64,000 nt of DNA from Cellulomonas sp. ES6 (GTDB taxonomy: Bacteria; Actinomycetota; Actinomycetes; Actinomycetales; Cellulomonadaceae), in assembly GCF_030053835.1 (NCBI RefSeq), contig NZ_CP125655.1:1736001-1800000 (forward strand), in the 5' to 3' direction. Positions 1 through 14,795 of this stretch are shown here, one piece after another. A model generated the notes under the pieces. It did not search any database. It saw only the letters and a program-made list of their open reading frames with translations, and had not been told where the DNA came from. Made by a program: the position numbers and the translations under genes. How positions within the stretch are numbered: the first letter of the stretch is position 1; every line of letters begins with the position of its first letter.

Positions 1-180
<180 letters not shown>

Positions 181-293
181 TCACTCTGGCTCGTGGTTCG
201 GCCGGTCGGTGCCCGCGACGGACGGTCGCTCCGGCCCGTCGGTCATGTCCCGTCGGGCGGTGCGACCTCACCGGGTCGGCCTGGGTTGTCATT

Positions 294-320
294 CTGTCAC
301 TCTCGACCCGAGAGTGCTAA
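294..320. promoter_or_regulatory. CIRCE operator 1 (HrcA site)
   Basis: CTGTCACTC - nine bases - GAGTGCTAA. The right half matches the CIRCE consensus exactly; the left half keeps the CACTC core. It lies 129 bases upstream of groEL and is the usual binding site of the heat-shock repressor HrcA. Confidence 0.85.
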
Positions 321-329
321 CACCAATGG

Positions 330-356
330 TTAGCACTCGACCCTGGTGAGTGCAAG
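330..356. promoter_or_regulatory. CIRCE operator 2 (HrcA site)
   Basis: TTAGCACTC - nine bases - GAGTGCAAG. The left half is a perfect consensus and the right half has two differences. It follows CIRCE 1 after nine bases, so the dyad centres are 36 bp apart. It also lies 47 bases before the ATG of the plus-strand gene at 403, so it could affect both directions. Confidence 0.85.
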
Positions 357-402
357 GCGCTCCGCCCTCGGCGGACGCGTCCGGGCCGGTAGCCTGCCGC
401 GC

Positions 403-1695
403 ATGCCCGCTCGCCGCACCACCGCCGTCGTGCTGCTGGCCGCGCTGGGCACGGGACTCGTGGCGTGGGGCGCGTCGGGGCCGCGGGACGCGTCGCTGCC
501 GCTCTACGCCCAGGGCGTGGCCCTCGACGCCACCGGCGCCGTGGTGGACGTCCCGGTCGGGTCACCGGCGGCGCTGCACGACGGCACCCGCGTGCTGGAC
601 GTCCCGGGCACGCGCGCGGACGACGCGCTCGCGGAGGAGCAGCGGGCGTGGCTCGCCTCCGGCTCCCTGCCCGGCGGGGCCGACGGGCCGTACGCGGACA
701 TGGTCGCCGACGCGCTGCTCGACCTGCACACCCTGCTGCTGCCGGACGGGGCGGCGGTGGCAGCATGGACCGACCGGTGGCGCTACGTGTGGCCCCGCGA
801 CGCCGCGTTCGTCGCGGTCGCGCTGGCCCGGACGGGGCACGGCAACGACGCCCTGGACGTGCTCGGCTTCCTCGACCGGGTGCAGGCGCCCGACGGCTCG
901 TTCGAGGCGCGGTACCTGCCCGACGGGTCCGGGCCGCCGGACGGCCGCGCGCCGCAGACCGACGGCACGGGCTGGGCGCTGTGGGCGGCCGGCGAGGTGG
1001 TCGACGCCCAGCCCGCGGACCGGCGCCGGGCGGTGGCCGAGCGGCTCCGCGGGCTCGTGACGCGGTCCGCCGCCGGCGCGGTCGCGCTCACCGCCGACGA
1101 CGGCCTGCCGCCCGCCTCCCCGGACTACTGGGAGGTCGCGGAGGACGAGCTGACCCTCGGGACGGTCGCGCCGCTGCTCGCGGGCCTCGAGTCGGCGCCG
1201 GCGCTCCTGGAGCTGCTCGGCGAGGACGGGGCTGCGGCCGCCGCCCGGGAGGCCGCCGGGCGCACCCGGGGCGCCGTCGAGCGGGAGTTCGGCGACGACA
1301 CCGCGTACGGCCGGTACGCCGGCGGAAGCGTCCCGGACGCCGCGAGCGCGTTCGTCCTGCCCCCGTTCCAGCCGGAGCCGCTGACCGGGGCGCTCGACGC
1401 GTGGCAGGCCTCGGCGGAGGCGATGGCACGTCCCGCGGGCGGCCTCGCGCCCGGGGCGGCGTGGAAGCGCGACGGCATCTCCTGGACGCCGCAGACCTCG
1501 CTCTACGCCCTGGTGGCCGCGGAGAACGGCCGGCCGGACGAGGCGCGGGCCCGGCTGGACTGGCTCGACGCCCACCGGACGACGCTCGGCGCGCTGCCGG
1601 AGAAGGTGCTCGCGGACGGCTCACCCGCGGCGGTCGCCCCGCTGGCGTGGACCGCGGCGTGCGTGGTGCTGGCCGTCGGCGCGCTGGACGGCTGA
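403..1695 (+). CDS. Exported glycoside hydrolase family 15-like protein
   Basis: A 430-residue protein with an N-terminal hydrophobic segment (residues 8-24, AVVLLAALGTGLVAWGA) that is a signal peptide or anchor. The body resembles the (alpha/alpha)6 barrel of GH15 glucoamylase/glucodextranase-type enzymes: WRYVWPRDAAF near residue 128, PDYWEVAEDE near 245 (position of the general acid in the family) and LPEKV followed by PLAWTAA near the end (position of the base). GH15 enzymes hydrolyse alpha-glucosidic bonds; the substrate here is not evident. ATG at 403 was chosen because the hydrophobic segment follows directly. It is divergent from groEL and has no obvious operon partner. Family placement is by motif only. 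Confidence 0.75.
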   Translation: MPARRTTAVVLLAALGTGLVAWGASGPRDASLPLYAQGVALDATGAVVDVPVGSPAALHDGTRVLDVPGTRADDALAEEQRAWLASGSLPGGADGPYADMVADALLDLHTLLLPDGAAVAAWTDRWRYVWPRDAAFVAVALARTGHGNDALDVLGFLDRVQAPDGSFEARYLPDGSGPPDGRAPQTDGTGWALWAAGEVVDAQPADRRRAVAERLRGLVTRSAAGAVALTADDGLPPASPDYWEVAEDELTLGTVAPLLAGLESAPALLELLGEDGAAAAAREAAGRTRGAVEREFGDDTAYGRYAGGSVPDAASAFVLPPFQPEPLTGALDAWQASAEAMARPAGGLAPGAAWKRDGISWTPQTSLYALVAAENGRPDEARARLDWLDAHRTTLGALPEKVLADGSPAAVAPLAWTAACVVLAVGALDG

Positions 1696-1720
1696 CCCGG
1701 CGCGCCGACGGCCGGGGCTC

Positions 1721-1924
1721 TCAGAGCGGGCGCACCTGCTCGGCCTGGGGGCCCTTGGTGCCCTGGCCGACCTCGAAGTCCACCGACTGACCCTCCTCGA
1801 GGGTCCGGTAGCCGTTCGTCTGGATGGCGCTGAAGTGGACGAACAGGTCCTGGCCGCCGTCGGCCGGGGTGATGAACCCGTAGCCCTTCTCGGCGTTGAA
1901 CCACTTGACGGTTCCCTGCGGCAT
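1721..1924 (-). CDS. cspA: Cold-shock protein, CspA family
   Basis: A complete 67-residue cold-shock domain. RNP1 is seen as KGYGFITP (residues 13-20) and RNP2 as LFVHFSAI (residues 27-34), preceded by the canonical GTVKWFN start. These OB-fold proteins bind single-stranded nucleic acid and act as RNA chaperones or antiterminators. A strong AGGAG ribosome-binding site lies 7 bases upstream of the ATG. The 127-base gap upstream probably includes its leader. Several csp paralogues are normal in actinobacteria, so the exact paralogue name is arbitrary. Confidence 0.96.
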
Positions 1925-2051
1925 GCGGTGCTCCTGATGACGACGTGACCGGTCGCCGACGGCCCCCGTCCCCCGGCGGGCCGGCGGGCAGGCACCGCGA
2001 CGCGCCGAGCGTAGCCGCGCCCCCTCACGGGCGGAAGAGGCGGCCGGACCT

Positions 2052-2669
2052 TCAGCCCGCGAAGTCGGCCAGCAGGAGCACGACGACGCCCTGGTCCGCG
2101 ACCTCGGCCGACTCGACCACGTTCGTCAGGCCGAGCGTGGCCGCGACCTGCTGCGCGGTGACCGCGAGGTCGGCGTTCGCGTAGAACACCGTGGAGGCGG
2201 TGCTCCCGCCGGCGTTGCCGTTCCCGGCCGTGACGTCGGTGAAGCCGGCGCCCTCGAGCTGCTCCGCGGCACCGCCGGCGAGCCCGCTGATGTTCGCGGC
2301 GTTGAGCACGCGGACCGGCACGGACAGGTCGGGGGCGGGCGGCGGGACCTCCTCGACCGGGGCGTCCCCGGTCTCCTCCGGCGCCGGGGCGCCGCCCGTG
2401 TCGTCCGGGCTCGCGGCGGGGCCGGACGACGAGGGGGGCGCCGAGGCGTTCGTGTCGTCGCCCCCGCCGATCACGGGCAGCTTGCCGTCCCAGGACGCGG
2501 CCCACAGCACGGCCGACACCGTCAGGGCCGGCACGACCACGACCACCGCGACGAACGGCCACCACCGGCTCCACCAGCTCCGGGGTGCACGGTGCACGCC
2601 GATCGGTGCGTCCTGCGCCGGACCGGCGTCGAACTCGTCCTCCGGGAAGCGGGAGCTGGCCTTGGTCAC
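2052..2669 (-). CDS. Membrane-anchored LytR C-terminal domain protein
   Basis: 205 residues. A cytoplasmic N-terminus of about 35 residues precedes one transmembrane segment (about 36-58, [20 protein letters not shown]), then a Pro/Ala/Glu-rich extracytoplasmic linker (about 70-115) and a LytR_C domain beginning [19 protein letters not shown]. LytR_C domains are extracytoplasmic modules found on cell-envelope proteins; this one lacks the LCP catalytic domain, so an enzymatic role is not supported. It sits 53 bases downstream of the DUF3263 gene on the same strand, a pairing that recurs in actinobacteria. Start at the ATG at 2669; no frame problem is seen. Confidence 0.85.
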
Positions 2670-2722
2670 GGCGGACAGGCTAACGGCTCAGCCTGGCGGG
2701 ACGGTCCAGCACGCCGCGCGGG

Positions 2723-3052
2723 TCAGGCGTCGGCGCCGAGGCGGCGGGCGGACCGCGCCCGCTGCCGGGTGGACCGCATGCGCCGGAGCCGCTTGACGAG
2801 CATCGGGTCGTGCGCGAGGGCGGCCGGCGAGTCGATCAGCGCGTTGAGCACCTGGTAGTACCGGGTGGCCGACATGTCGAACAGCTCGCGGATGGCCTGC
2901 TCCTTGGCGCCGGCGTACTTCCACCACTGCCGCTCGAACGCCAGCACCTGCTGGTCGCGCTCGCTGAGCCCGTCGGCGTCGGCGCCGCCGTCGACCGCGA
3001 CGAGGGCGGGCCGGGCGGCCGTGCCGAGGTCGAGCCCCGCCGTCGCGTCCAT
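2723..3052 (-). CDS. DUF3263 domain protein
   Basis: 109 residues from the preferred ATG at 3052; an upstream in-frame ATG at 3094 is possible. The core LSERDQQVLAFERQWWKYAG followed by KEQAIRELFDMSATRYYQVL looks like a small helical, sigma-like helix-turn-helix module and matches DUF3263. The tail is strongly basic (KRLRRMRSTRQRARSARRLG), consistent with nucleic-acid binding. Function is unknown in the family. It is divergent from ung, with a perfect palindrome at 3105-3124 in the gap. Confidence 0.82.
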   Translation of the reverse strand: MDATAGLDLGTAARPALVAVDGGADADGLSERDQQVLAFERQWWKYAGAKEQAIRELFDMSATRYYQVLNALIDSPAALAHDPMLVKRLRRMRSTRQRARSARRLGADA

Positions 3053-3164
3053 CCGTGCCCTCCCGTGCCTGCCGCCATCCGGTCCGCCGCCCATCGTACG
3101 GCCGGAATGACACGGCTGTCATTCGTCGCGGGGGCCACGGGGCGGTCCGCTAGCGTGGGTCGCC

Positions 3165-3845
3165 GTGAGCCCCGCCGCACCGCTGTCCGAGCTCGTCGCC
3201 GCCGACTGGGCCGCCGCGCTCGCCCCGGTCGAGGACCGGGTGCACGCCGCCGGGGAGTTCCTGCGGGCCGAGGTCGCCGCCGGGCGGGGCTACCTGCCCG
3301 CCGGGCCGGACGTGCTGCGCGCCTTCACCCGGCCGCTCGCGGACGTGCGCGTGCTGGTGGTCGGCCAGGACCCCTACCCGACCCCCGGCCACCCGATGGG
3401 GCTGTCGTTCTCCGTGCAGCCGCACGTCCGGCCGCTGCCGCGGTCGCTCGCCAACATCTTCACCGAGCTGCAGGCCGACCTCGGGGTCCCCGCGCCCACC
3501 ACCGGGGACCTGTCCCCGTGGGCGGACCGCGGCGTCATGATGCTCAACCGGGTGCTGACGGTGCGCCCCGGCGAGCCCGCCTCGCACCGCGGCAGGGGCT
3601 GGGAGGCCGTGACCGACCGTGCGATCGCGGCGCTCGTCGAGCGGGGCGGCCCGCTGGTCGCCGTGCTGTGGGGCCGCGACGCGCAGTCGCTGCGACCCGC
3701 GCTCGGGGACGTGCCCGTCGTGGCCAGCGCCCACCCGAGCCCCCTGTCCGCGAGCCGCGGGTTCTTCGGCTCCCGGCCGTTCTCCCGCGTGAACGCGCTG
3801 CTCGCCGAGCTGGGGGCGGACCCCGTCGACTGGTCGCTGCCCTGA
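3165..3845 (+). CDS. ung: Uracil-DNA glycosylase, family 1
   Basis: 226 residues, the usual length of family-1 UDG. It removes uracil from DNA to start base-excision repair. The water-activating motif [16 protein letters not shown] (about residues 67-82) carries the catalytic Asp, and the DNA-intercalation motif [13 protein letters not shown] lies near residue 190 with the catalytic His. [12 protein letters not shown] and [15 protein letters not shown] are further family blocks. GTG start at 3165, chosen because the family N-terminus is short. The gene stands alone, divergent from DUF3263. Confidence 0.97.
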
Positions 3846-3918
3846 GACGACCGGCCCGCGGCCGCGGCCGGCGTCGGAACCTCTGACACACCCGGGCCGC
3901 CGGGGGCACACTGCGGGG

Positions 3919-4785
3919 GTGAGGACGCACGACAGCAGGGGACCCGCACGCACCACCGGCCAGCAGCCCGCGGCCGGCGCCGACCCGGCCCACGACGGCG
4001 CACCGCCGCGCTGGGAGCGCTACGTCGCGATCGGCGACTCGTTCACCGAGGGCCTGTGGGACACGCCCGAGGGCGAGGACGGCCCCGTGCGCGGCTGGGC
4101 CGACGTGCTCGCCGGCCTGCTGTCCGACCGGCGGCGCGCGGCCGGGCTCCCGGCGCTGCGCTACGCCAACCTCGCGGTGCGCGGCCGGCTGCTGCGCCCG
4201 ATCGTCGCCGAGCAGCTGCCACGGGCGCTGGAGCTCGGCCCGGACCTGGTCAGCCTCGTCGGCGGCGGGAACGACATCCTGCGCCCGGGCGCCGACCCGG
4301 ACCGCCTGGCGCGGGACCTGGAGCGTGCGGTCGCGCTCGTCCGGAGCACCGGCGCGGACGTGCTGCTCGCCACCGGCTTCGACTCCTCGGGGTCCCCGCT
4401 GGTCTCCACGACGCGTCCGCGGGTCGGCGTGTTCAACGCCCACCTGTGGTCGATCGCGCGCCGCCACGGGGCGCACGTGCTGGACCTGTGGGGCATGCGG
4501 CACCTGCGCGACCTGCGGATGTGGGCGCCGGACCGGATCCACCTGACCACGGAGTCCCACGCCCGGGTCGCCCAGGGCGCGCTCGCCGCCCTGGGGATCG
4601 AGCCGGACGACCCGGCGTGGGACGAGCCGCTGGCCCCGCTGCCGCGCCTCCCCCGCGCGCAGCAGGCGCGCCTCGACGCCCGCTGGGTGCGGCTGTACGC
4701 CTACCCGTGGGCGACCCGGCGGCTGCGCGGCCGGTCGTCGGGCGACACCCGCGCCGCGAAGCTCCCGGCGCTCACGGAGCTCTGA
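3919..4785 (+). CDS. SGNH/GDSL-family hydrolase
   Basis: 288 residues. Block I is YVAIGDSFTEGL (about residues 35-46, nucleophile Ser), block III is GGGNDIL (about 116-122, oxyanion Asn) and block V is DRIHLT (about 205-210, catalytic Asp/His). These define the SGNH fold of esterases and lipases. There is no signal peptide; the N-terminal 30 residues are polar and probably disordered. The C-terminal 60 residues (RLPRAQQARLDARWVRLYAYPWATRR...) are rich in arginine. GTG start at 3919. Substrate cannot be predicted; actinobacterial cytosolic SGNH proteins of this type are mostly uncharacterised. Confidence 0.88.
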   Translation: MRTHDSRGPARTTGQQPAAGADPAHDGAPPRWERYVAIGDSFTEGLWDTPEGEDGPVRGWADVLAGLLSDRRRAAGLPALRYANLAVRGRLLRPIVAEQLPRALELGPDLVSLVGGGNDILRPGADPDRLARDLERAVALVRSTGADVLLATGFDSSGSPLVSTTRPRVGVFNAHLWSIARRHGAHVLDLWGMRHLRDLRMWAPDRIHLTTESHARVAQGALAALGIEPDDPAWDEPLAPLPRLPRAQQARLDARWVRLYAYPWATRRLRGRSSGDTRAAKLPALTEL

Positions 4786-4794
4786 GCGCGGCCC

Positions 4795-5208
4795 TCAGCC
4801 GACGGCCGGGGTGTCCGTCACGAGGGCCAGCGACACGCCGGCGACGTCCTCGGCGGGCACCACGGTGCCGTCGAGCGCCACGACCGTGCTCGGGGCGGTC
4901 ACCGGCGTGCGTGCCTCGGCGAGCGCCCGGTCGCCGGGGCCCCGCAGCGTGAGCGCGACCTCCCGGCCCGCGCAGCCGTCCGGGACGCCCGACAGCGAGG
5001 CCCGCGTCACGGCGTAGCCACCGAGCGCCGCGTCGTAGTCGACGTCGTAGCCGACGCTGATCCGGCTCACGACGCACGCCCCCGGCGGGGCGGCCTCCCC
5101 GCCGTCCCACGTCATCGCGCGCGCCATCGAGACCGCCAGCCCGGCGCACCCGAGCCACGCCAGGGTGACCCCTGCCACGCGACGTGCGCGGACGTGCTCG
5201 TGCGCCAT
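4795..5208 (-). CDS. Small exported protein of the SipW-type locus
   Basis: 137 residues from the ATG at 5208, chosen over upstream in-frame starts because it places a hydrophobic segment (about residues 13-29, VTLAWLGCAGLAVSMA) at the N-terminus. The rest aligns with the two other exported proteins of this locus: a first Cys (ACVVSRISVGY), then GGYAVTRASLSGVPDGCAGR with a second Cys, then alternating beta-like segments ending VAGVSLALV. I know no function for this domain. It lies 118 bases downstream of the second exported protein, so it may have its own promoter or be last in the operon. It probably acts outside the membrane; unlike the other two, its AxA-like site is weak (SMARAMTW). Confidence 0.7.
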   Translation of the reverse strand: MAHEHVRARRVAGVTLAWLGCAGLAVSMARAMTWDGGEAAPPGACVVSRISVGYDVDYDAALGGYAVTRASLSGVPDGCAGREVALTLRGPGDRALAEARTPVTAPSTVVALDGTVVPAEDVAGVSLALVTDTPAVG

Positions 5209-5326
5209 GGGCGCCCCCTCCGTGGACCCTGCCCGGTCGATCCGTCGACCTGACGGGCCCATCGTCCGCCCGGCGCCGCCGTTGAGCACGCCGGGGCACG
5301 GTCCACCCCATCGGGGGACGCCGGGG

Positions 5327-6424
5327 TCAGCGGCTGCCGGCGCAGATGCCGAAGGTCTGGGGCACGTCGTCGCGGATGCCGAGGGCGCTCCAGCCCTGCC
5401 GGGGCGTGACGCGGTAGACGGTCCCGCCGAGCGGCGCCACCGACAGCTCGCCCGTGCTGGTGCGGATCCTCGAGGTGTCGAGCGACCGCCCGGACGCCGC
5501 GAAGAACGTCTGCAGCGGCTCGAGGTCCACGTCGGCGCGCCAGCCCGCGAAGAACTGCGGCGTGCCCGTCACCCGGACGGTCGTGGTGAAGCAGGCGTCG
5601 TAGGCGCTGCCGGTCACCGCGGTGGAGGTCTGGCTGTACGTCAGCGCGGGGTCGTACGCCGGGGCGGGCAGGCGGTAGTGGCAGATCTCCACCTCGAACG
5701 ACTGCCCCGCCTGCAGCACGGCCGCGCCGGGCATGCCACCGGAGGCCACGCCCCCCACCTGCACCACGCCGTCGACGGGGCGCGGGTCGAGCACCTTCGC
5801 CCAGTAGGGGGTGTGCACCTCGAAGCCCGAGCCGTCGGCGACGCCGTTGAACGGCCGCTGGTCCAGGTGCAGGTCGATCCGCCAGGTCGTGCCCGCGTCC
5901 CCCGAGACCGGCACCACGACGCACGCCTGCGTGCCGGACTGCGGCAGCACCGTCCAGCGCAGCGGGCCGAACACCGTCCCGGGGCCGGGCGTGACGGGGC
6001 CGGACGGGCCCGCCTGGGGCGCGGCCCAGGTGACGGGGACGCCCCACGTGCCGACCGTGAGCGCGACGCCCGCGACCCGCGAGGCGGCGTACGCGGGGAC
6101 CGTCACGGTGGTGGTGTCGGCGGCGGCCAGGGTCACGGAGGCGTCGGACGCGGCGAGCGGGGTGCCGTCCGCCGTGTGCAGCCGCAGCGTGGCCTGCTGG
6201 CCGCGGCAGGCCGCGGGGACGCCCGACAGCACCACGGTGGTGAGCGTGCCCGACGCGCCGCCCGTGCCCGCCGCGAGCGCCGCGGTGGTGCAGGGCGCCG
6301 CGGCGGCGGTGGTCAGCCCGCCGGAGGACAGCAGCAGGCGGGCGGCGCTGGCCGGCGTGAGGAGCAGCAGCACGAGCAGGCCGGCGGTCGCGGCGACGAC
6401 GGCGGCGGCCCGGCGACGGGTCAC
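5327..6424 (-). CDS. Large exported protein of the SipW-type locus
   Basis: 365 residues. The GTG start at 6424 overlaps the stop of the signal peptidase gene (GTGA), implying translational coupling. N-terminal TRRRAAAVV, hydrophobic run (about 10-24) and ASAARLLLSSGGL match the unusual signal sequence of its neighbour at 7055. Residues about 40-125 form the shared domain (PCTTAAL ... TVVLSGVPAACRGQ ... VAGVALTVGTW). The remaining 240 residues contain three further cysteines or more (TQACVV, VEICHYR, YDACFTT, FGICAGSR) and look beta-rich, suggesting disulphides outside the cell. No enzyme motif was found. It may be a surface or filament subunit processed by the adjacent peptidase; that is inference. 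Confidence 0.75.
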   Translation of the reverse strand: MTRRRAAAVVAATAGLLVLLLLTPASAARLLLSSGGLTTAAAAPCTTAALAAGTGGASGTLTTVVLSGVPAACRGQQATLRLHTADGTPLAASDASVTLAAADTTTVTVPAYAASRVAGVALTVGTWGVPVTWAAPQAGPSGPVTPGPGTVFGPLRWTVLPQSGTQACVVVPVSGDAGTTWRIDLHLDQRPFNGVADGSGFEVHTPYWAKVLDPRPVDGVVQVGGVASGGMPGAAVLQAGQSFEVEICHYRLPAPAYDPALTYSQTSTAVTGSAYDACFTTTVRVTGTPQFFAGWRADVDLEPLQTFFAASGRSLDTSRIRTSTGELSVAPLGGTVYRVTPRQGWSALGIRDDVPQTFGICAGSR

Positions 6425-7041
6425 GGGGCGCGCTCCGGCGCGGCGCCCGGCACCGGCGCGGCATCCGGCACCGGCGCGGCATCCGGCACCGGCGCGGCAT
6501 CGGCATCGGCCTGCGCCTCGGGGCGTCCCGGCCACAGCAGCACGCCCGCGGCCACCACGAGCAGCGACGCCCACGCCCAGGGGTCCAGGAGCAGGGACGC
6601 GACGCGGCCGACCCCGGGCAGGTGGAGGCGGGCGATGCCGAGCACGTCCTCCTGGTGCGGCCGCCACGGGTCGGTGAAGCCGTTGTTGTCGCCCTGGATC
6701 GACCAGCCGGCGTCCGCGTCGCCGCCGACGACCCGGTGGATGATCCGCCCGTCGACGCCGGGCGGGGTGTAGACGACGACGTCCCCGGGCTCCGGGACCC
6801 CGCACCGGGACACGACGAGGTCGCCGGTGCGGTACGTGGGCTCCATCGAGTGGCCGGAGACGATGGTCAGCGTGGTGCAGCCGCCGAGCGTGCTCGGCCA
6901 GCCGAACCAGAGCAGCAGCCCCACGACGCCGGCGGTGAGCAGCCAGCCGGCGGCGGAGCGGGCGCGCCCGGGCACGCCGGAGGGCCGGCGCGGGGCAGAC
7001 GTGCTGCCCGCGCCGGCCCGGTCGGCGTGCTCGCCGGGCAC
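6421..7041 (-). CDS. SipW-type (ER-type) signal peptidase I
   Basis: 206 residues. First transmembrane segment about 33-48 (LLTAGVVGLLLWFGW); catalytic Ser in SGHSMEPTYRTGDLVV (about 62-77). The second conserved box reads GRIIHRVVG, with His where ordinary bacterial signal peptidases carry the catalytic Lys, the hallmark of the SipW/archaeal/ER class. Then GDNNGFTDP (about 117-125), and a second transmembrane segment about 153-170. The C-terminal tail contains a perfect PVPDAA tandem repeat. It lies 13 bases after one exported protein and overlaps the next by 4 bases, so these proteins are its likely substrates. Confidence 0.9.
   Translation of the reverse strand: MPGEHADRAGAGSTSAPRRPSGVPGRARSAAGWLLTAGVVGLLLWFGWPSTLGGCTTLTIVSGHSMEPTYRTGDLVVSRCGVPEPGDVVVYTPPGVDGRIIHRVVGGDADAGWSIQGDNNGFTDPWRPHQEDVLGIARLHLPGVGRVASLLLDPWAWASLLVVAAGVLLWPGRPEAQADADAAPVPDAAPVPDAAPVPGAAPERAP
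6442..6495. repeat. 18-bp tandem repeat, three units
   Basis: Three consecutive 18-bp units (6442-6459, 6460-6477, 6478-6495); the last two are identical. In frame they encode the PVPDAA repeats of the signal peptidase tail. Copy number could vary between strains without breaking the frame. Confidence 0.85.
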
Positions 7042-7054
7042 GACGGGTCCGGCG

Positions 7055-7507
7055 TCAGCCCGCGATGACGGCCGCGACGCCCTTGACGTCGGCAGCCTTC
7101 GGGGAGCCGGTGACCGTCAGGGTGACGGTGCCGCCGCCCGTGGGCACCGTGGCCTGGGCCCGGCCGAGGGACGTGCCCGCGGTCGTGGCGGCCGGGTCGG
7201 CGTCGAGCAGCTCGACGCTGACGGTCTGGCCCGCGCAGGTGTCGGCGACGTCGGTCAGCGTCACGCCGCTGACGGTGTAGCCCTTGGCGGCCACCGAGAA
7301 GGTGTTGGTGAAGCCGACCTTGACGCCGTTCGTGTCGCAGGACGCGACGACGGTGGTGCCGGCGCCCAGGGAGCCGGCGTTGAGGGTGAGCTGGGCGGCG
7401 GACGCCAGGCCGAGCCCGGCGACGCCGAGCGCGACGACGGTGACGGCGACGACCTTGCGGCGGCCGGTGCGGCGGACGGGGGTGGGACCGGCGGTGCGGC
7501 GGGACAT
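7055..7507 (-). CDS. Exported protein with SipW-dependent-type signal sequence
   Basis: 150 residues. N-terminus RRTGRRKVVAVTVVALGVAG is basic then hydrophobic, followed by LASAAQLTLNAGSLGAGT, the pattern typical of SipW-dependent signal peptides in actinobacteria. The mature part has two cysteines (VASCDTNG and ADTCAGQTVSV) flanking GYTVSGVTLTDV, and ends in VTLTVTGSPKAADVKGVAAV. It is the shortest example of the domain shared with the proteins at 5327 and 4795. An AGGAG ribosome-binding site sits about 7 bases before the ATG at 7507. As the first gene of the locus and a compact exported protein, it is a candidate major subunit; no filament motif can be proved. Confidence 0.78.
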   Translation of the reverse strand: MSRRTAGPTPVRRTGRRKVVAVTVVALGVAGLGLASAAQLTLNAGSLGAGTTVVASCDTNGVKVGFTNTFSVAAKGYTVSGVTLTDVADTCAGQTVSVELLDADPAATTAGTSLGRAQATVPTGGGTVTLTVTGSPKAADVKGVAAVIAG

Positions 7508-7759
7508 GGGACTCCTCGCGGACGACGGCTCGCCAGGGCGAGGCGCGGCCGTGGAGCCGGGGGACGGACGCGCCTTCCGGCGCACCGAGGTCCCCCTGGC
7601 CCGCGCGCGCCGGCTGCCGAACGGTAGGGCCTGCGGCTGCGTGGTCGTGCACCCGTTTGGGTGGCAGCACCCCCGCCGTGGTACGTCAATTGCGAATTTG
7701 CACCAGATAGCCCCACAAACCGGACATATCGGGCGGGTGAACTTCGGTCGCGACGCTGG
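7508..7759. promoter_or_regulatory. Upstream region of the SipW-type operon
   Basis: 252 bases between the end of the sensor kinase and the first exported-protein gene. Most is GC-rich, but 7680-7745 is distinctly AT-richer than the surroundings (AATTGCGAATTTG; ACAAACCGGACATATCGG). It contains CGGACATATCG (7721-7731), whose reverse complement holds the TGTCCG core that also occurs twice in the kinase/regulator gap (8975-8990). A promoter here is likely; no confident -10/-35 pair is claimed. Confidence 0.5.
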
Positions 7760-8908
7760 TCAGCGCGCCGCGGTGCGCAGAGATTCCACCGGAAGGCGGG
7801 CGACCACCTGGGTGCCGTTCCCCGGGACGGATGTCACCCGGAGGTCGCCCCCGGCCAGACGCAGGCGGTCGCCGAGCCGAGCCGTCCCGGAGGCGGGCAC
7901 GGACCCCGGCACGAAGCCGACGCCGTCGTCCGCCACGCGCACCTCCAGGGCGTCCCCGACCACCGCGACCCGCACGTCGACCACCGCCGCGTGCCCGTGC
8001 CGCAGCGCGTTCGTGACGCCCTCCTCGACCACGCGCACCGCGAGCAGCCGCTCGGACCGGGTCAGACGTGGGTCCGCCGGGTCGTCGAGCACCCGCACCT
8101 CGTCCGCGACCCCGAACCGGGTGTTGACCGTCGTCGGGATCCGCCCGAGCAGGGCGCGGACCGCCGGGACCATGCCGACCTCGAGCTGGTCCGGGTAGAG
8201 CATGCGCGAGGTCGAGCGCACGTCCGTCTCCCGCACCAGCTCGATCTGCTCGCGCACCTCCCCCAGCAGCTCGAGGTCCTCCGGCTCCGCGCGGCCGGAC
8301 AGCCGGTCGCGCAGCCGGTCGAGCCGCGCGACCACGAGCACGAGGCGCTGCTGCATGCTGCCGTGCAGCCCCTCCGCCACCTCCCGGCGGACACGCACCT
8401 CCTCGTACTGCAGCGCCTGGAGCGCGAGCTCGATCTGCAGGCGGCTCTCCGCCGCGGCCGCGACCTGGGTCCGCAGCCGGCGCTGCGACAGCATGGCGGC
8501 CAGGCCCATGAACCCCGCGATCCACGCCACGACCGCCCCGCTGACGACCTCCGCGAGCACGACCGAGCGCGCGGGGTGGGGGTAGATGCCCAGCGTGACC
8601 TGCACGCCGAACCGGACGCCGGCCGCGGCCACCCCGGCGGCGAGCACCCCGAGCACCACCAGGGTCGTGGGACGACGCGGACGCGCCACCCCCACCACGA
8701 CCAGCAGGACGAGCATGCCGACCACCGCCGTCAGGTTCGCCGCGATCCGCAGCAGCACCGGCACGGACCCGCCCTGGTTGCCGTAGACCCACGCGGTCTG
8801 CGCCGCGGCACCGACCGCGAACACCGACATGACGGTGCCGGCGGCCAGCAGCAGCGTCCGCCGGTCGGCCCGCGCCGCTGCCGGGTCGTCCGCCGTCGCT
8901 GCGGGCAT
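7760..8908 (-). CDS. NarL-type sensor histidine kinase
   Basis: 382 residues from the ATG at 8908, preceded by GGGGGAG. The N-terminal half has about six hydrophobic segments and no large sensor domain. The dimerisation/phosphoacceptor box is RREVAEGLHGSMQQRLVLV (about residues 196-214); the usual LHD is LHG here, as in some members of this class. The ATPase has an N-box-like VVEEGVTNALRHGHA (about 300) and a G1 box VADDGVGFVPG (about 333). The partner is the divergent regulator at 8984, 75 bases away. The input signal is unknown; the adjacent export locus is a plausible target. Confidence 0.87.
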   Translation of the reverse strand: MPAATADDPAAARADRRTLLLAAGTVMSVFAVGAAAQTAWVYGNQGGSVPVLLRIAANLTAVVGMLVLLVVVGVARPRRPTTLVVLGVLAAGVAAAGVRFGVQVTLGIYPHPARSVVLAEVVSGAVVAWIAGFMGLAAMLSQRRLRTQVAAAAESRLQIELALQALQYEEVRVRREVAEGLHGSMQQRLVLVVARLDRLRDRLSGRAEPEDLELLGEVREQIELVRETDVRSTSRMLYPDQLEVGMVPAVRALLGRIPTTVNTRFGVADEVRVLDDPADPRLTRSERLLAVRVVEEGVTNALRHGHAAVVDVRVAVVGDALEVRVADDGVGFVPGSVPASGTARLGDRLRLAGGDLRVTSVPGNGTQVVARLPVESLRTAAR

Positions 8909-8983
8909 GTGCACTCCCCCATCCGTGGGACCGTTCGCGCGCCGACCCGGCGTCCGCGGGTCACATTGACCATACTGTCCGAG

Positions 8984-9655
8984 ATGTCCGATCCCACATC
9001 CACCCAGGTCCGCGTGGTCGTCGTGGAGGACCAGCCGCTGTTCCGGTCGATGCTGGAGCTCACGCTGGGAGCCGCCGACGACGTGCGCGTGGTGGCCTCC
9101 GTCGGCACGGTCAGCGAGGGAGCCGCGGCCCTGCGGCCCGGTGCCGCCGACGTGGCCGTGCTCGACATCGACCTGCCCGACGGCAACGGCATCGCGCTCG
9201 GCGTCACGCTGCGGCGCCGGCAGCCGGACCTCGGCATCCTGCTGCTGTCGGCGCACGACGCCATGGACCTGCTGCTCGACCTGCCCCCGGACGTCGCCAG
9301 CGGGTGGTCCTACCTGTCCAAGACGTCCTCCACGAGCGCGCAGACCCTGGTCGCGGCCATCCGGGCCACCGCGGCGGGCCGCACCACGCTGGACCCGGCG
9401 CTGCTCGACCGGATGGCGCCGCGCGCCGGGTCGACGGTCGCCCGGCTGACCGACCGGCAGTACGCCGTGCTGCGGCTGCTGGCGCAGGGGCTGTCCAACG
9501 CCGGGATCGGCGAGGCGCTGCGCATCACCGAGAAGTCGGTCCAGAACCACATCAACGGCATCTACGGGACCCTCGGGATCGACGTGGACCCCGGCCGCAA
9601 CCCCCGCGTCACGGCGGCGCTCCGGCTCCTGGAGGAGACCGGCCGCGCGTCCTGA
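8984..9655 (+). CDS. LuxR/NarL-family response regulator
   Basis: 223 residues. The receiver domain starts VRVVVVEDQPLFRSML, with the phosphorylated Asp in VAVLDIDLPDGNG (about residue 58) and the conserved Lys in SYLSKTSS (about 113). The C-terminal LuxR-type helix-turn-helix is LTDRQYAVLRLLAQGLSNAG followed by ITEKSVQNHINGIYGTLGI (about 155-200). It pairs with the divergent histidine kinase. The two TGTCCG motifs overlap or adjoin its own start, so autoregulation is possible. ATG at 8984 gives the normal family N-terminus. Confidence 0.92.
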   Translation: MSDPTSTQVRVVVVEDQPLFRSMLELTLGAADDVRVVASVGTVSEGAAALRPGAADVAVLDIDLPDGNGIALGVTLRRRQPDLGILLLSAHDAMDLLLDLPPDVASGWSYLSKTSSTSAQTLVAAIRATAAGRTTLDPALLDRMAPRAGSTVARLTDRQYAVLRLLAQGLSNAGIGEALRITEKSVQNHINGIYGTLGIDVDPGRNPRVTAALRLLEETGRAS

Positions 9656-9718
9656 CGCGCCGCACGACCACGGGTGGCCCCGGCGCCCCAAGATGCCTGG
9701 CATCCGTTCGGGTGAGAG

Positions 9719-9796
9719 TTGCCCACCGCGCCGCGGCGTGGGTTACAGTAGGCACGCCCTCGGTCGCCTGCCCCCTGCGCGGCCGAGGGCTTCTTC
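9719..9796 (+). ncRNA. Candidate short terminated transcript
   Basis: A possible promoter, TTGCCC (9719-9724) and TACAGT (9744-9749, 19-base spacing), faces a hairpin only a few bases downstream: GCCCTCGG (9756-9763) pairs perfectly with CCGAGGGC (9783-9790), with an inner CGC/GCG pairing and a C-rich loop, followed by TTCTTC. A transcript of about 40-45 nt would form and terminate. It lies between the convergent ends of the regulator and the hydrolase gene. It could equally be a convergent terminator; the promoter is the only evidence for an RNA. Confidence 0.4.
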
Positions 9797-9864
9797 ATGC
9801 CCGGGCCCCGCCCGCGCCGTACCCGGGCCCTGCCCGCGCCCGACCCCGGCGGCCGGCCCCGCCC

Positions 9865-10401
9865 TCAGAGCACCAGCCGCTCCAGCAGCGGGAACTCGTC
9901 GTACGGCTGGTCCCAGTCCCCGAAGTGGCCGTCGTCCCGCACCACGAGCGTGCCGCCGAGCCGGTCCAGCAGCGCCCGACCCTGCGTCGCGTCGCAGCCG
10001 TACGGGTCCCGCACGGAGTTCACGAACACCAGGTCGCCCGCGTGCGCGCGGATGCGGTCCCAGTCGTAGGTGTCCTGCAGGACGGGCTCGTCGGCGTCGT
10101 TCGGCGGCGTCGCGTACCCGGCGACCAGGACGGCCTGCGCCACGCGGGCGGGGGCGTGCTCGAGCACGGCGAGCAGCAGCGCGGCCCCGCCGGAGTGACC
10201 GACCAGCACGGTGTCCCCGTCCAGCGGGTGCGCGGCCAGGAACCGGGGCAGCGTCTCGGCGACGGGCTCGACGTTGAGGCGCGGCAGGTGCGGGCGCTCC
10301 ACGGCGTACCCGCGCGCGGTGAGCCGGTCCGCCAGCCACGGGTACCAGACGTTGTCCGGGTGGCCGCCGGTGCCGTGGACGACGATCGCGCGGCGCGCCA
10401 C
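9865..10401 (-). CDS. RBBP9/YdeN-type alpha/beta hydrolase
   Basis: 178 residues, typical of the short RBBP9/YdeN serine-hydrolase family. N-terminal strand and oxyanion region IVVHGTGGHPDNVWYPWL (about residues 6-23), nucleophile elbow VLVGHSGGAALL (Ser about 74), acidic member in VNSVRDPYG (about 125) and catalytic His in VVRDDGHFGDW (about 150). The physiological substrate is not known. The GTG start at 10401 lies just downstream of the LysR gene (5-base gap), suggesting co-transcription with it, and hence a link to the aldo/keto reductases under the same regulator. Confidence 0.87.
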   Translation of the reverse strand: MARRAIVVHGTGGHPDNVWYPWLADRLTARGYAVERPHLPRLNVEPVAETLPRFLAAHPLDGDTVLVGHSGGAALLLAVLEHAPARVAQAVLVAGYATPPNDADEPVLQDTYDWDRIRAHAGDLVFVNSVRDPYGCDATQGRALLDRLGGTLVVRDDGHFGDWDQPYDEFPLLERLVL

Positions 10402-10406
10402 GGCGC

Positions 10407-11354
10407 TCAGCCCCGCCCCGGCGCGGCGGCGACGGCGCGGCCGGGTCCCTGGGCGGCCCCGCGCTGCGCGACCGCGGCGGCCACGTCCTCGTCCGCGTCG
10501 AGCAGCTCGAGCAGGCGCGGCGCGAGGCCGGGTGCGGACCCGACGACGGCCGACACGACCCACCACGCCTGCTGCGGCAGCCGGACCGGCACCAGCCCGG
10601 CGGCCTGCGGCTTGGCGGCCACGTGCTGCGGCACGAGCGCGATCCCGAGCCCGCGGTCGACGAGGTCCAGCAGCGTGTGGATGTCGTTGACCGTGCAGCG
10701 CACGTGCCGGGCGACCCCGCGGGCCGCGCACACCGCGTCGTTGAGCGACCGCACCCCCCAGCTCGGCTGGAAGTCGATGAAGTCGTGCCCGGACAGCGCC
10801 TCCCAGTCCGCCTTCGAGGCGGCGCTCAGCGGGTGCCCGGGCGGGCACAGCAGCACGACCTCCCGGCGCCCGAGCTCCACGGGCCGCACGCCCGCGAGGT
10901 GCTCCTGCGTGGCGACGAACGCGACGTCGAGCTCGCCCGCGCGCACCGCGGCGACCAGCTCGTGCGAGCCGGCCTGCGTGAACGCGATGTCCACCTGCGG
11001 GTAGCGCCGGCGGAACCGCTCGAGCAGCGGCGGCACGTCCACCACGCCGAGGCACTGCTCGGCACCGAGCCGCAGCGTGCCGCTCAGCTCGTGGGTGGCG
11101 CGGACGACGGCGTCCCGCCCGGCCGCCGCCTGGTCCAGGACCGCCCGCGCGTACGGCAGCAGCGCGAGGCCCGCCTCGGTCGGCGCGACCCGGCGCGTGG
11201 TGCGCGCGAACAGCCGGGTGCCCAGCTCGTCCTCGAGCGCCCGGATCGCGGCGGACAGCCCGGACTGCGAGACTCCGCAGAGCGCGGCGGCGCGCGTGAA
11301 CTGCTCCTCCTCCGCCAGCGCGACGACGTATTCCATCTGCCGCAGGTCCATCAT
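10407..11354 (-). CDS. LysR-family transcriptional regulator
   Basis: 315 residues. N-terminal winged helix-turn-helix MDLRQMEYVVALAEEEQFTR with the recognition region CGVSQSGLSAAIRALEDELG (about 26-45), then a substrate-binding domain beginning GTLRLGAEQCLGVVDVPPLL. This is the normal architecture and length. It is divergent from two aldo/keto reductases (98-base gap), the usual layout for a LysR protein controlling its neighbours with a small-molecule co-inducer. A Met pair leaves the start ambiguous by one codon. Confidence 0.93.
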   Translation of the reverse strand: MMDLRQMEYVVALAEEEQFTRAAALCGVSQSGLSAAIRALEDELGTRLFARTTRRVAPTEAGLALLPYARAVLDQAAAGRDAVVRATHELSGTLRLGAEQCLGVVDVPPLLERFRRRYPQVDIAFTQAGSHELVAAVRAGELDVAFVATQEHLAGVRPVELGRREVVLLCPPGHPLSAASKADWEALSGHDFIDFQPSWGVRSLNDAVCAARGVARHVRCTVNDIHTLLDLVDRGLGIALVPQHVAAKPQAAGLVPVRLPQQAWWVVSAVVGSAPGLAPRLLELLDADEDVAAAVAQRGAAQGPGRAVAAAPGRG

Positions 11355-11451
11355 CGGCCTCGCTTCTGAATCCCATGAGTCCCAGTCGTTGGACTTGTGG
11401 AGCCAGCGTACCTACGGTCGAGGCACGACCCCGACGACGTGAGGTGGACAC

Positions 11452-12309
11452 GTGCAGCAGCGCACCCTCGGCAACCGCACCGTGAGCGCGATCGGACTCG
11501 GCGGCATGCCGATGTCGATCGAAGGACGACCCGACCGCTCCCGGTCCCTGGCCACCATCCACGCGGCGCTCGACGCCGGCGTGACCCTGATCGACACGGC
11601 CGACTCGTACCACCTGCACGCCGGGGAGGCGGGCCACAACGAGGAGCTCATCGCCGAGGCGCTGCGCACCTACGGCGGCAGCACCCAGGACGTGCTGGTC
11701 GCCACGAAGGCCGGGCACCTGCGCCCCGGTGACGGCACCTGGACGCAGGACGGCCGGCCCGAGCACGTCAAGGCCGGGGCGAAGGCGTCCGCGCGGCGCC
11801 TGGGCGTCGAGGCCATCGGGCTGTTCCAGTTCCACCGGCCCGACCCGCAGGTGCCGTACGCCGACTCCGTGGGCGCGCTCGCCGAGCTGCTCGACGAGGG
11901 CGTGATCCAGCAGGCCGGCATCTCCAACGCCACGGTCGCGCAGATCGACGAGGCGCAGCAGGTGCTCGGCGGCCGGCTCGTGTCGGTGCAGAACCAGTTC
12001 TCGCCGGCGTTCCGGTCCAGCCTGGACGAGCTGCGGCACTGCGCCGACCTCGGCATCGCGTTCCTGCCGTGGTCCCCGCTCGGCGGCATCACCCGGTCCG
12101 GCGAGCTCGGCGAGCGTCACGCGGCGTTCCGCGAGGTCGCCGACGCCCACGGCGTCAGCCCGCAGCAGGTCGCCCTGGCGTGGGAGCTCGCGCTCGCGCC
12201 GGTCGTCATCCCGATCCCCGGGGCCTCCCGGCCCGAGAGCATCACCGACTCGGTGCGCGCCGCCGACCTGGTGCTCGACGCCGACGAGCTCGCGCGGCTC
12301 TCCGCCTGA
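11452..12309 (+). CDS. Aldo/keto reductase
   Basis: 285 residues. TIM-barrel AKR features: N-terminal hairpin RTLGNRTVSAIGLGGMPM, catalytic Asp/Tyr in VTLIDTADSYHLHAGEAG (about 44-60), catalytic Lys in VLVATKAGHL (about 83) and the NADPH-binding C-terminus VIPIPGASRPESI (about 258). It probably reduces an aldehyde or ketone with NADPH; substrate unknown. GTG start at 11452 with GAGGTGGA upstream. It is followed after 31 bases by a second AKR of a different subgroup; both are divergent from the LysR gene. Confidence 0.92.
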   Translation: MQQRTLGNRTVSAIGLGGMPMSIEGRPDRSRSLATIHAALDAGVTLIDTADSYHLHAGEAGHNEELIAEALRTYGGSTQDVLVATKAGHLRPGDGTWTQDGRPEHVKAGAKASARRLGVEAIGLFQFHRPDPQVPYADSVGALAELLDEGVIQQAGISNATVAQIDEAQQVLGGRLVSVQNQFSPAFRSSLDELRHCADLGIAFLPWSPLGGITRSGELGERHAAFREVADAHGVSPQQVALAWELALAPVVIPIPGASRPESITDSVRAADLVLDADELARLSA

Positions 12310-12340
12310 CCCCCCGCACCACCGTCCCGAGAGGCACCCC

Positions 12341-13276
12341 GTGAAGACCTTCACCCTGCCCGGCACCGACATCGAGGCACCCAACGTCGTGCTCGGCCTC
12401 ATGCGGATCGCCGAGAAGTCCGACGACGAGATCCGCGAGCTCGTGCGCACCGGCCGCGACGCCGGCACCACGTTCCTCGACCACGCCGACGTCTACGGCC
12501 GCGAGCTGCACGAGTGCGAGGCACGGTTCGCCCAGGCGCTCGCCCTCACGCCGTCCGAGCGCGACGAGTACACGATCCAGACCAAGTGCGGCATCGTCCG
12601 CGAGGGCCCGTACTTCGACTTCTCGTACGAGCACATCCTCGAGTCCGTCGAGGGCTCGCTGCGCGCCCTGCGCACCGACCACATCGACGTGCTGCTGCTG
12701 CACCGCCCCGACGCGCTCGTCGAGCCCGACGAGGTCGCCCGCGCGTTCGACGAGCTCGAGGCCGCGGGCAAGGTGCGGGCGTTCGGCGTCTCCAACCACA
12801 CGCCCCGGCAGATCGACCTGCTGCGCCGCTCCGTCCGGCAGCCGATCGTCGCCAACCAGCTGCAGCTGTCGATCACCCACGCGGCGATCGTCACGCAGGG
12901 CCTCGCGGCCAACATGGTCGGCGCCGAGCAGTCCGTCACCCGCGACGCCGGCGGCATCCTCGACTACTGCCGCCTGAACGACATCACCGTGCAGGCGTGG
13001 TCGCCGTTCCAGGCCGGGTTCTTCACCGGCACGTTCCTGGACAACCCCGAGTTCGCCGAGCTGAACCAGGTGATCGGCGAGCTGGCCGCCGCCTACGACG
13101 TGCCGCCGATCGCGATCGCCACCGCGTGGATCACCCGGCACCCGGCCCGGATGCAGGTCGTGCTCGGCACCACGACGCCCGAGCGCGTCGCCGGCGCCGC
13201 CCAGGGCTCGGACCTGCCCCTGACCCGCGCGCAGTGGTACGCCCTGACCCGCGCGGCGGGCCACATCGTCCCCTGA
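12341..13276 (+). CDS. Aldo/keto reductase, YdhF-like
   Basis: 311 residues. Catalytic residues appear in TTFLDHADVYGRELHECE (Asp/Tyr, about 45-60) and IQTKCGIVREG (Lys about 85); HIDVLLLHRPDALVEPDEVA and VRAFGVSNHTPRQIDLL are typical of the YdhF branch. It is only distantly related to the upstream AKR, so this is not a recent tandem duplication. The 31-base gap and shared strand suggest one transcript. GTG start at 12341. The stop is followed by a repeat-rich gap and a tRNA gene. Confidence 0.92.
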   Translation: MKTFTLPGTDIEAPNVVLGLMRIAEKSDDEIRELVRTGRDAGTTFLDHADVYGRELHECEARFAQALALTPSERDEYTIQTKCGIVREGPYFDFSYEHILESVEGSLRALRTDHIDVLLLHRPDALVEPDEVARAFDELEAAGKVRAFGVSNHTPRQIDLLRRSVRQPIVANQLQLSITHAAIVTQGLAANMVGAEQSVTRDAGGILDYCRLNDITVQAWSPFQAGFFTGTFLDNPEFAELNQVIGELAAAYDVPPIAIATAWITRHPARMQVVLGTTTPERVAGAAQGSDLPLTRAQWYALTRAAGHIVP

Positions 13277-13303
13277 CGCCGGCCCGCCCGGCTTGACCCC
13301 CGC

Positions 13304-13369
13304 GAGGTCGTCACCTCGGCACGAGGTCGTCAGGTCCGCCTGACGACCTCGTCCGCACGTGACGACCTC
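13304..13369. repeat. Four-copy palindromic 10-mer cluster
   Basis: GAGGTCGTCA occurs at 13304-13313 and 13323-13332, and inverted at 13341-13350 and 13360-13369. The inner pair extends to a perfect 14-bp stem (13321-13334 with 13339-13352) closed by TCCG. There is no T-run after it. It fills the gap between the aldo/keto reductase stop and the tRNA. Confidence 0.85.
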
Positions 13370-13394
13370 GCGCGCCGTGCGCGGACCTCGTCGG

Positions 13395-13468
13395 AGCCCC
13401 CTGTCGGATTCGAACCGACGACCTGCTGTTTACAAGACAGCTGCTCTGGCCAGCTGAGCTAAGGAGGC
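13395..13468 (-). tRNA. tRNA-Thr (anticodon UGU)
   Basis: On the minus strand the sequence folds into a full cloverleaf: acceptor GCCTCCT pairing with AGGGGGC, D-stem GCTC/GAGC, anticodon stem GCTGT/ACAGC with loop CTTGTAA giving anticodon TGT, and T-stem GTCGG/CCGAC with TTCGAAT loop. The anticodon reads ACA threonine codons, which are rare in this genome. No CCA is encoded. Confidence 0.96.
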
Positions 13469-13511
13469 GGGCGCGCGCCGCGGCGTCGCGCGGGGCCAGC
13501 CTACCGGCGCG

Positions 13512-14795
13512 TCAGGGCTGCGGGTCGCGGGCGTCGTAGCGCCAGAACCCGCGCTGCCACCGCACGAGCGCCCACAGCAGCACCACGCACGCGAGCCCGC
13601 CGACGAGGGCCGCCCCGCCCTCCCCGAGGTGCTCCGAGACGGCGCCGAGCAGCAGCTCGCCCAGGCGCGGGCCGCCGGCGACGACCACGACGAACACGCC
13701 CTGCAGCCGGCCGCGCATGTCGTCGGGGGTGGCGGTCTGCAGGATCGTCTGCCGGAACACCGCGCTGACGGCGTCCGCCGCGCCGGCGGCGGCGAGCGTG
13801 AGGACCGCGAGCGCCAGCGACCACCACAGCACGTCGTCCGGGTGGGAGCGCCCCGCGAGCACCAGCACCAGGCCGAAGCCCGCGACCGCGAACCCCCAGA
13901 CGGTGATGGCGAGCACGATGATGCGGCCCTGCCAGCGCACGCGCGCGAGCCCGCCCGAGAACACCCCCGCGAGCATCGCCCCGGCGGCCACGGCGGCGGT
14001 CATGACGCCCGCGGTGGTCTCGCCGCCGCCGAGGTACACCAGCCCGACGGCGGGGAACAGCACGCGCGGGGAGGACGTGATCATCGCGATCAGGTCGACG
14101 AGGAACGTCATCCGCACGTTCGGCCGGGTCCCGAGGTAGCGCAGGCCGTCGAGCACCGACGCGAGGCCGGCGCGGGCCCGGCGCGTCCCGGACGGCTCCG
14201 GCGGGATGGGCGGCAGCCGCAGCAGCGCGGTGAAGGCGAAGGTGAACAGCAGCGCGTCGGCGGTGTAGACGACGCCGTAGTCGAGCGCGGCCACCAGACC
14301 GGCGCCGAGCAGCGGCCCCAGCGTCAGCGCCACGTTCCACCCGACGGTCTGCAGGGCGTTCGCCGCGGGCATCAGCCGGGGCTCCAGCAGCCGCGGGATG
14401 ATGGCCGACCGCGCCGGGCTGTTCACCGCCCCCGCGCCGGACTGCACCGCCACCAGGGCGTACAGCACGCCGACGTGCTCGTTGCCGGCCCACCCCTGCG
14501 CGGCCAGCCCGAGGGTCGCGACCCAGCTCACCGCGGACGCCACCAGCGCGACGGTGCGACGGTCCGCGTGGTCGACGATCGCGCCGCCGTACAGCCCGAA
14601 GACGACGAGCGGCACCAGCGCGCAGAGCCCGACCAGGCCGACCGAGAAGGTGGAGCGGGTCAGCTCGTACACCTGCAGCCCGACCGCGACGACCGTCAGC
14701 TGCGCGCCGAGGTTCGCCACGGACAGGCCCCACCACAGGCGGCGGAACTCGGGGCTGACGCGCAGCGGCGTCAGGTCCACGAGCAGGGAGGGCAC
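13512..14795 (-). CDS. MFS transporter, EntS-like
   Basis: 427 residues with about twelve hydrophobic segments. The N-terminal LRVSPEFRRLWWGLSVANLG and the loop GGAIVDHADRR after TM2 are typical of the EntS/DHA3 branch; RGRLQGVFVVVVAGGPRLGE near residue 370 also fits. Such proteins export siderophores or drugs with proton antiport; the substrate here is not predictable. It is the last gene before the tRNA on the same strand, and an 18-bp inverted repeat separates it from the upstream DsbA-like gene. Confidence 0.88.
   Translation of the reverse strand: MPSLLVDLTPLRVSPEFRRLWWGLSVANLGAQLTVVAVGLQVYELTRSTFSVGLVGLCALVPLVVFGLYGGAIVDHADRRTVALVASAVSWVATLGLAAQGWAGNEHVGVLYALVAVQSGAGAVNSPARSAIIPRLLEPRLMPAANALQTVGWNVALTLGPLLGAGLVAALDYGVVYTADALLFTFAFTALLRLPPIPPEPSGTRRARAGLASVLDGLRYLGTRPNVRMTFLVDLIAMITSSPRVLFPAVGLVYLGGGETTAGVMTAAVAAGAMLAGVFSGGLARVRWQGRIIVLAITVWGFAVAGFGLVLVLAGRSHPDDVLWWSLALAVLTLAAAGAADAVSAVFRQTILQTATPDDMRGRLQGVFVVVVAGGPRLGELLLGAVSEHLGEGGAALVGGLACVVLLWALVRWQRGFWRYDARDPQP

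Follow-up and report, generated by a model that had tools for sequence, protein, structure and literature searches.

A SipW-like operon of Cellulomonas sp. ES6 that may encode a sortase-free surface fibre with a glycan-binding tip

We analysed a stretch of 64,000 nucleotides (nt) of Cellulomonas sp. ES6 (here the window; positions 1736001–1800000 of the 4.12-Mb single-contig genome), in which four minus-strand genes stand in the order S1, signal peptidase, BIG and S2. We suggest, with our confidence about evenly balanced, that this operon encodes a SipW-like, sortase-free surface fibre that is built from S1 and carries a glycan-binding tip, BIG. The suggestion draws on conserved gene order, a domain shared by the exported proteins, a conserved strand left unplaced in structure models, glycan-binding-like C-termini, conserved cysteines and the precedent of TasA. 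An original prediction, made from the letters of the window alone, had described an export locus with the fibre logic of sipW-tasA but unrelated-looking subunits. The locus that it describes does exist and is conserved; its observation is partly confirmed and its interpretation partly supported. Coordinates and gene order were correct for all four genes, including the 4-nt GTGA overlap (6421–6424) of the peptidase stop with the BIG start.

The gene order recurs in other genomes. Scanning of named genomes with a peptidase alignment yielded 47 loci, partly from the same species, in which genes were labelled with our own profiles, BLAST and a gene caller. An S1-type gene lies immediately upstream of the peptidase in 47/47 of these named loci, and a BIG-type gene no more than three genes downstream of it in 45/47, the remaining two stopping at contig ends. 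Among the 45, BIG is fused to the peptidase in L077 and consists of the N-domain only (134–139 amino acids) in L084 and L102. Where the following gene is on the same strand (44 cases), it overlaps the peptidase gene in 29, and an additional downstream S-type gene of some kind is found in 34/47 loci. The nearest named locus, nearly identical to that of the window, is L058 (99%), from a metagenome bin with the label Micrococcales bacterium; the next ones belong to Cellulomonas, as do the nearest named protein matches of S1 and BIG. In a separate set of relatives' loci the S1-peptidase pair is kept in 20, with a BIG-type gene in 18 of the 20; in L045 and L049 the peptidase is followed only by an S2-like gene, with no BIG-type gene. 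A separate search with an S1 profile had matches in 24 of 297 genomes of the order (10 of 94 genera), and in all 20 loci fetched, the window's own included, the peptidase and a BIG-type N-domain lie beside S1. Across 58 genomes, own genome included, S1 was matched in 26 and the peptidase in 32; the locus is common but not universal.

In five loci (L142, L143, L145, L146 and L077) the peptidase and the BIG N-domain occupy a single open frame. These frames (L077:5896–7299 among them) span 462–491 residues, and two continue beyond the fetched DNA. The peptidase there may therefore be produced joined to the proposed tip, and a peptidase-substrate fusion is possible in other lineages. A minimal three-gene form, with S1, the peptidase and a 134-residue protein that is a BIG N-domain only, occurs in Diaminobutyricibacter (L102).

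Signal peptidases of the S26B type have a Ser-His pair, with His replacing Lys, and a conserved Asp. The archaeal/ER-type S26B peptidase of the window (6421..7041, minus strand) passes TIGR02228 (53.9 bits, cut-off 51.85), contains the two motifs predicted for it, SGHSMEPT and GRIIHRVVG, and has Ser65, His102 and Asp118 invariant across 16 aligned sequences. It does not reach the Bacillus SipW equivalog NF046067 (20.6 versus 190 bits). Its C-terminal tail (window 6424–6510) holds near-identical PDAAPVP repeats, at the DNA level too (by eye). Two extra cysteines (LGGCT, RCG) occur together in 47 such peptidases of the named loci and are jointly missing from 3; a fourth peptidase lacking the two is of the classical type. 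Second operon copies lie behind an SGNH gene in L081, L086 and L099, with peptidases devoid of both extra cysteines.

The window enzyme is not the sole S26B peptidase of its genome, which proved a wrong assumption: three further TIGR02228-type genes (in L211, 2448500–2457500; L212, 741000–750000; and L213, 3187000–3196000), two of them above the cut-off, and two bacterial-type signal peptidases above cut-off are found elsewhere. With so many enzymes at hand, the window peptidase could be a general one whose position beside S1 and BIG has no meaning for processing. We regard this as hardly credible given the invariable adjacency to S1, the five single-frame loci and the fact that the other three TIGR02228-type genes adjoin exported proteins of their own. 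Those exported neighbours have leaders ending in the classical aromatic way (by eye), and one of them, L213:4454–5071, passes the camelysin model PF12389 (24.3 versus 22.5). Hence the window locus is a distinct pairing of a peptidase with exported proteins.

The original prediction had proposed one cysteine module for all three exported proteins. These are S1 (7055..7507, minus strand), a 150-residue beta-domain protein with a leader of about residues 1–37 and the proposed main fibre subunit; BIG (5327..6424, minus strand), a 365-residue protein with an S1-like N-domain and two C-terminal beta domains and the proposed tip adhesin; and S2 (4795..5208, minus strand), a 137-residue protein with the S1 core, proposed as cap or anchor. 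Searching the complete genome with S1 as query gave S2 at E 1.5e–7. Alignment of the mature parts by hhalign scored 62.5 for S1 and the BIG N-domain, 54.0 for S1 and S2, and 34.9 for S2 and the BIG N-domain, versus 14.9, 15.5 and 16.6 for the best of 40 column shuffles of each pair. The genome search and the profile scores thus place the shared module beyond chance, and at the sequence level mature S1, mature S2 and the BIG N-domain are homologous. S1 shows no match to the C-terminal part of BIG (hhalign 10.5). The V-x-G-V ending was found in all three proteins (by eye), and the leaders ASAAQLTLNAGSL of S1 and ASAARLLLSSGGL of BIG are present as described. The (G)Y-x-V part of the proposed module is limited to S1 and S2, and BIG carries TLTTVVLSGVPAACRG in its place (by eye). 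A Pfam match of S1 residues 19–71 to Ail/Lom was set aside (16.8 bits versus a cut-off of 23), and neither S1, BIG nor their profiles matched any PDB sequence under E 0.001 (best 0.035).

S1 and BIG have in common a stretch before the first cysteine that S2 lacks: S2 has no extension of the S1/BIG type after its leader, and the S1-S2 profile match begins at position 18 of mature S1. In the AlphaFold2 model, S1 is a seven-strand beta domain with a predicted local distance difference test score (pLDDT) mostly >90, and residues 31–43 and 45–48 fall below 50; the preceding leader is also low (45–57 per block). The AlphaFold model of BIG has a mean pLDDT of 89.1, with residues 26–32 and 34–38 below 50 and a leader helix that scores better than these. 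Conservation of S1 is high in the same region, with mean information of 3.10 bits for residues 38–50 and 3.14 for 38–58 versus 2.14 for 59–150; the best 13-residue stretch is 46–58 (3.28 bits), and leader residues 18–34 reach 2.95. Among 111 aligned rows, Leu40 is kept in 109, Leu47 in 93 and Ala49 in 107. Because a conserved hydrophobic strand is left unplaced in the monomer models, S1 residues 38–50 (AQLTLNAGSLGAG; 7358..7396, minus strand) and BIG residues 28–38 at the mature N-terminus (6311..6343, minus strand) are predicted donor strands.

The C-terminal part of BIG (domains 2 and 3, about residues 146–258 and 259–365; 5330..5989, minus strand) varies across relatives, where it is often a beta domain remotely resembling cellulose-binding module family 2 (CBM2). 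CBM2 (PF00553) aligns with type-B C-termini (22 of 46) at a score of 33.3 over 84 columns, versus 24.1 for the best of 100 shuffles and 16.6 for the reversed control, and fn3 scores 13.8 against the same C-termini; the BIG part sits on an S1-like export module and not on an enzyme. For window-type domains 2 and 3 the CBM2 scores are 18.1 and 12.6, with 12 shuffles reaching 15.6 and 16.6, and a CBM2 is the nearest PDB structure to domain 3 among the matches listed. Ricin-B lectin (PF00652) is present in 2 of 40 BIG proteins (best E 9.8e–22). The window BIG matches neither PF00652 nor any other Pfam family, CBM2 included, at E up to 10, and CBM2 is missing from the 9 Pfam families found for the set of 40 at E up to 0.1. 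Repeats 1 and 2 of BIG share a short match only (29.0 over 28 columns; 40 shuffles up to 22.3). Of 8000 candidates scored in a protein search with the BIG profile, 39 were returned, mostly close relatives, with no new tip type. The variable, sugar-binding-like C-terminal part strengthens the earlier guess that the 365-residue protein could be a tip.

In chaperone-usher tip adhesins such as FimH, a variable lectin domain is attached to a pilin-like one. BIG is similar in combining a subunit-like domain, here N-terminal, with a binding part, here C-terminal; outer membrane, usher and chaperone are absent from the present case. FimH was listed first when the BIG profile was compared with the PDB, at an E of 0.4 that is not significant.

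S1, S2 and BIG might also form no fibre and be soluble or wall-associated secreted proteins, a lectin with its partners, served by a signal peptidase of their own. Several points speak for this: neither a C-terminal LPXTG-like sorting signal nor a C-terminal membrane anchor was seen by eye in any of the three proteins, the glycan-binding-like domains of relatives' BIG fit a secreted lectin, and S1 is modelled as a confident single domain. Yet the stretch after the S1 cleavage site is conserved and has alternating hydrophobic residues, which is odd for a free tail, and BIG has an S1-like N-domain with the same post-cleavage stretch. We therefore consider the secreted-lectin alternative unlikely, if still to be taken seriously.

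For the sortase-free fibre, we infer peptidase cleavage, polymerisation and ligand from these data as follows. S1, BIG and S2 would be exported with N-terminal leaders, which the S26B peptidase of the operon would remove. Leader removal would free the conserved N-terminal strand of S1 and BIG, and the freed strand would complete the beta domain of the next S1, a donor-strand exchange by analogy with TasA. The shaft would consist of S1 repeats and the tip of BIG with its lineage-specific glycan-binding domain. S2, having the same core and no donor strand, may end or anchor the chain.

Two S1 cysteines, C91 (111/111 rows) and C57 (110/111), are conserved and probably form a disulfide. Disulfide-forming genes lie near many loci (DsbA-like in 24/47 named loci, VKOR in 5/47); none was seen within window positions 1–14000. 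DsbA-like genes are also found upstream in L070, L071, L076, L077, L084, L085, L090, L091 and L096, loci mostly of Actinotalea that have no kinase gene, and some of these have MauE/DoxX-like or VKOR genes as well.

The operon is similar to tapA-sipW-tasA of Bacillus subtilis (PMC9674648) and sipW-tasA/calY of B. cereus (PMC13082335), which are likewise small, combine a SipW-type peptidase with exported subunits and have no sortase. In TasA, the segment immediately downstream of the cleavage site is a strand that completes the neighbouring subunit, and the N-terminus of TapA resembles that strand (PMC9674648). The likeness would thus extend to a strand at the mature N-terminus and to a second protein bearing it, TapA there and BIG here. 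In contrast to TasA systems, S1, S2 and BIG match no TasA/CalY/camelysin or SipW-cognate model (PF12389, NF046066, TIGR04088) at E up to 10, and 24 S1 proteins compared with NCBIfam at E up to 1 gave no TasA, camelysin or SipW-cognate family. TasA is also absent among the matches listed for the S1 and BIG models, which excludes nothing. The window leader lacks the classical aromatic feature seen at the three further TIGR02228-type loci of the same genome (by eye). The window locus further differs from TasA systems in its conserved cysteine pair and large glycan-binding-like part, and in most loci of its type a kinase and a regulator are attached. The predicted sipW-tasA-like logic with unrelated subunits is accordingly upheld by synteny, by the lack of a TasA-model match and by the conserved unplaced strand.

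We know of no lectin or CBM-like tip in the BsaA-SipW system of Clostridium perfringens. That system, which we set beside the window locus by description only, is alike in having a peptidase of the SipW type that is reportedly associated with an extracellular matrix protein (PMC7395162). By analogy, the window system would function in the manner of tasA, with a tip that acts as FimH does; the tests made show it as a member of neither family.

Upstream of S1 lies the gene of a sensor histidine kinase (7760..8908, minus strand; HATPase_c 40.5 bits), possibly an operon regulator, followed by a divergent gene of a NarL/LuxR-type response regulator (8984..9655, plus strand) with Response_reg and GerE domains over cut-off; its ATG at 8984 was read by eye, and the domain scan took 9014–9655. 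A convergent SGNH-type hydrolase gene (name assigned by eye) lies downstream of the operon. A kinase homologue is present in 34/47 named loci, and of the 13 without one, L059 and L061 have no sequence beyond S1. This frequency would suit S1, S2 and BIG being ligands or sensors of the adjacent two-component system and not structural parts, but 11 of the 45 loci for which upstream sequence is available retain S1, the peptidase and BIG without the kinase, and we find such a role very improbable. Another possibility is an envelope coat or sheet that displays BIG, in place of a thin fibre, with the kinase sensing envelope state. UhpB- and LiaS-like profile matches of the kinase, all under cut-off, and the many loci flanked by disulfide-forming genes would agree with a coat; mature S1, with only about 113 residues in one domain, and the dispensability of the locus at genus level (S1 in 26/58 genomes) would not, and we rate such an arrangement as improbable.

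Expression of the fibre operon is probably controlled in part by this two-component system together with a palindromic operator. The palindromic site GGGTGCTGCCACCC upstream of S1 (7659..7672, minus strand) is a candidate regulator site: GGGTG-N4-CACCC occurs upstream of S1 in 22/35 kinase-linked loci (window and near-twin L058 included) and in 0/13 other loci, 11 of these with upstream DNA, versus 0.06 of 48 loci expected from Markov shuffles. The link between palindrome and kinase is significant when kinship is ignored (Fisher test on the 11 kinase-free loci with upstream DNA, P-value 2.4e–4). A scan for promoters and terminators found nothing. We located the 15-mer GGGTGCTRSCACCCA at 24 distinct places, spread over 11 of 35 genomes, versus 3 for the reversed control; 6 places lie upstream of S1, and the 18 others were all fetched and inspected, with gene names assigned by eye. 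Three of these precede a flgB-like gene by 203–218 nt (L111, L113, L120), one a pilB-like gene by 140 nt (L119) and four large exported proteins by 92–221 nt (L110, L115, L121, L125); three lie near purS (L109, L114, L122), and three fall outside all groups (L118, L124, L126). When up to one mismatch is allowed, the 14-mer has 24 places in the genome of the window versus 16 for the reversed control; two are exact, the second (L105) near a purS-like gene and inside or beside a doubtful frame. A 1856-residue frame behind a mismatched site (L106) was left unused, having no Pfam match and an end like that of a wrong frame (by eye). Two observations weaken this regulatory part: kinase linkage is confounded with kinship, the kinase-free loci with upstream DNA being mostly Actinotalea, and in four genomes the 15-mer lies 83–88 nt before a MarR-type gene (L112, L116, L117, L123), which makes a MarR protein a possible binder. 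The candidate operator could be bound by the locus regulator or by the MarR protein, and the operon may be switched along with other surface functions in a possible surface regulon.

By title and start of abstract, we found no description of the locus in the openly accessible literature; a Cellulomonas secretome paper (PMC4780727) places its hypothetical proteins in supplementary figures and tables. More tentatively than for the fibre itself, we propose that such loci might constitute a separate Gram-positive pilus class, with a SipW-like peptidase, disulfide-bonded Ig-like pilins that are unrelated to TasA and assemble by donor-strand exchange, and an exchangeable tip that binds glycans and is, in some lineages, synthesised as a single chain with its own peptidase. 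Cellulomonadaceae and some relatives might use it to hold polysaccharide surfaces and might switch it together with motility through the shared palindromic operator. If true, the SipW-fibre principle would have been reached with unrelated subunits and a FimH-like exchangeable tip, using neither usher nor sortase. To our knowledge, little is known about how cellulose-degrading Cellulomonas attach to plant polymers, and the locus is a concrete, testable candidate for such attachment in many species of the genus.

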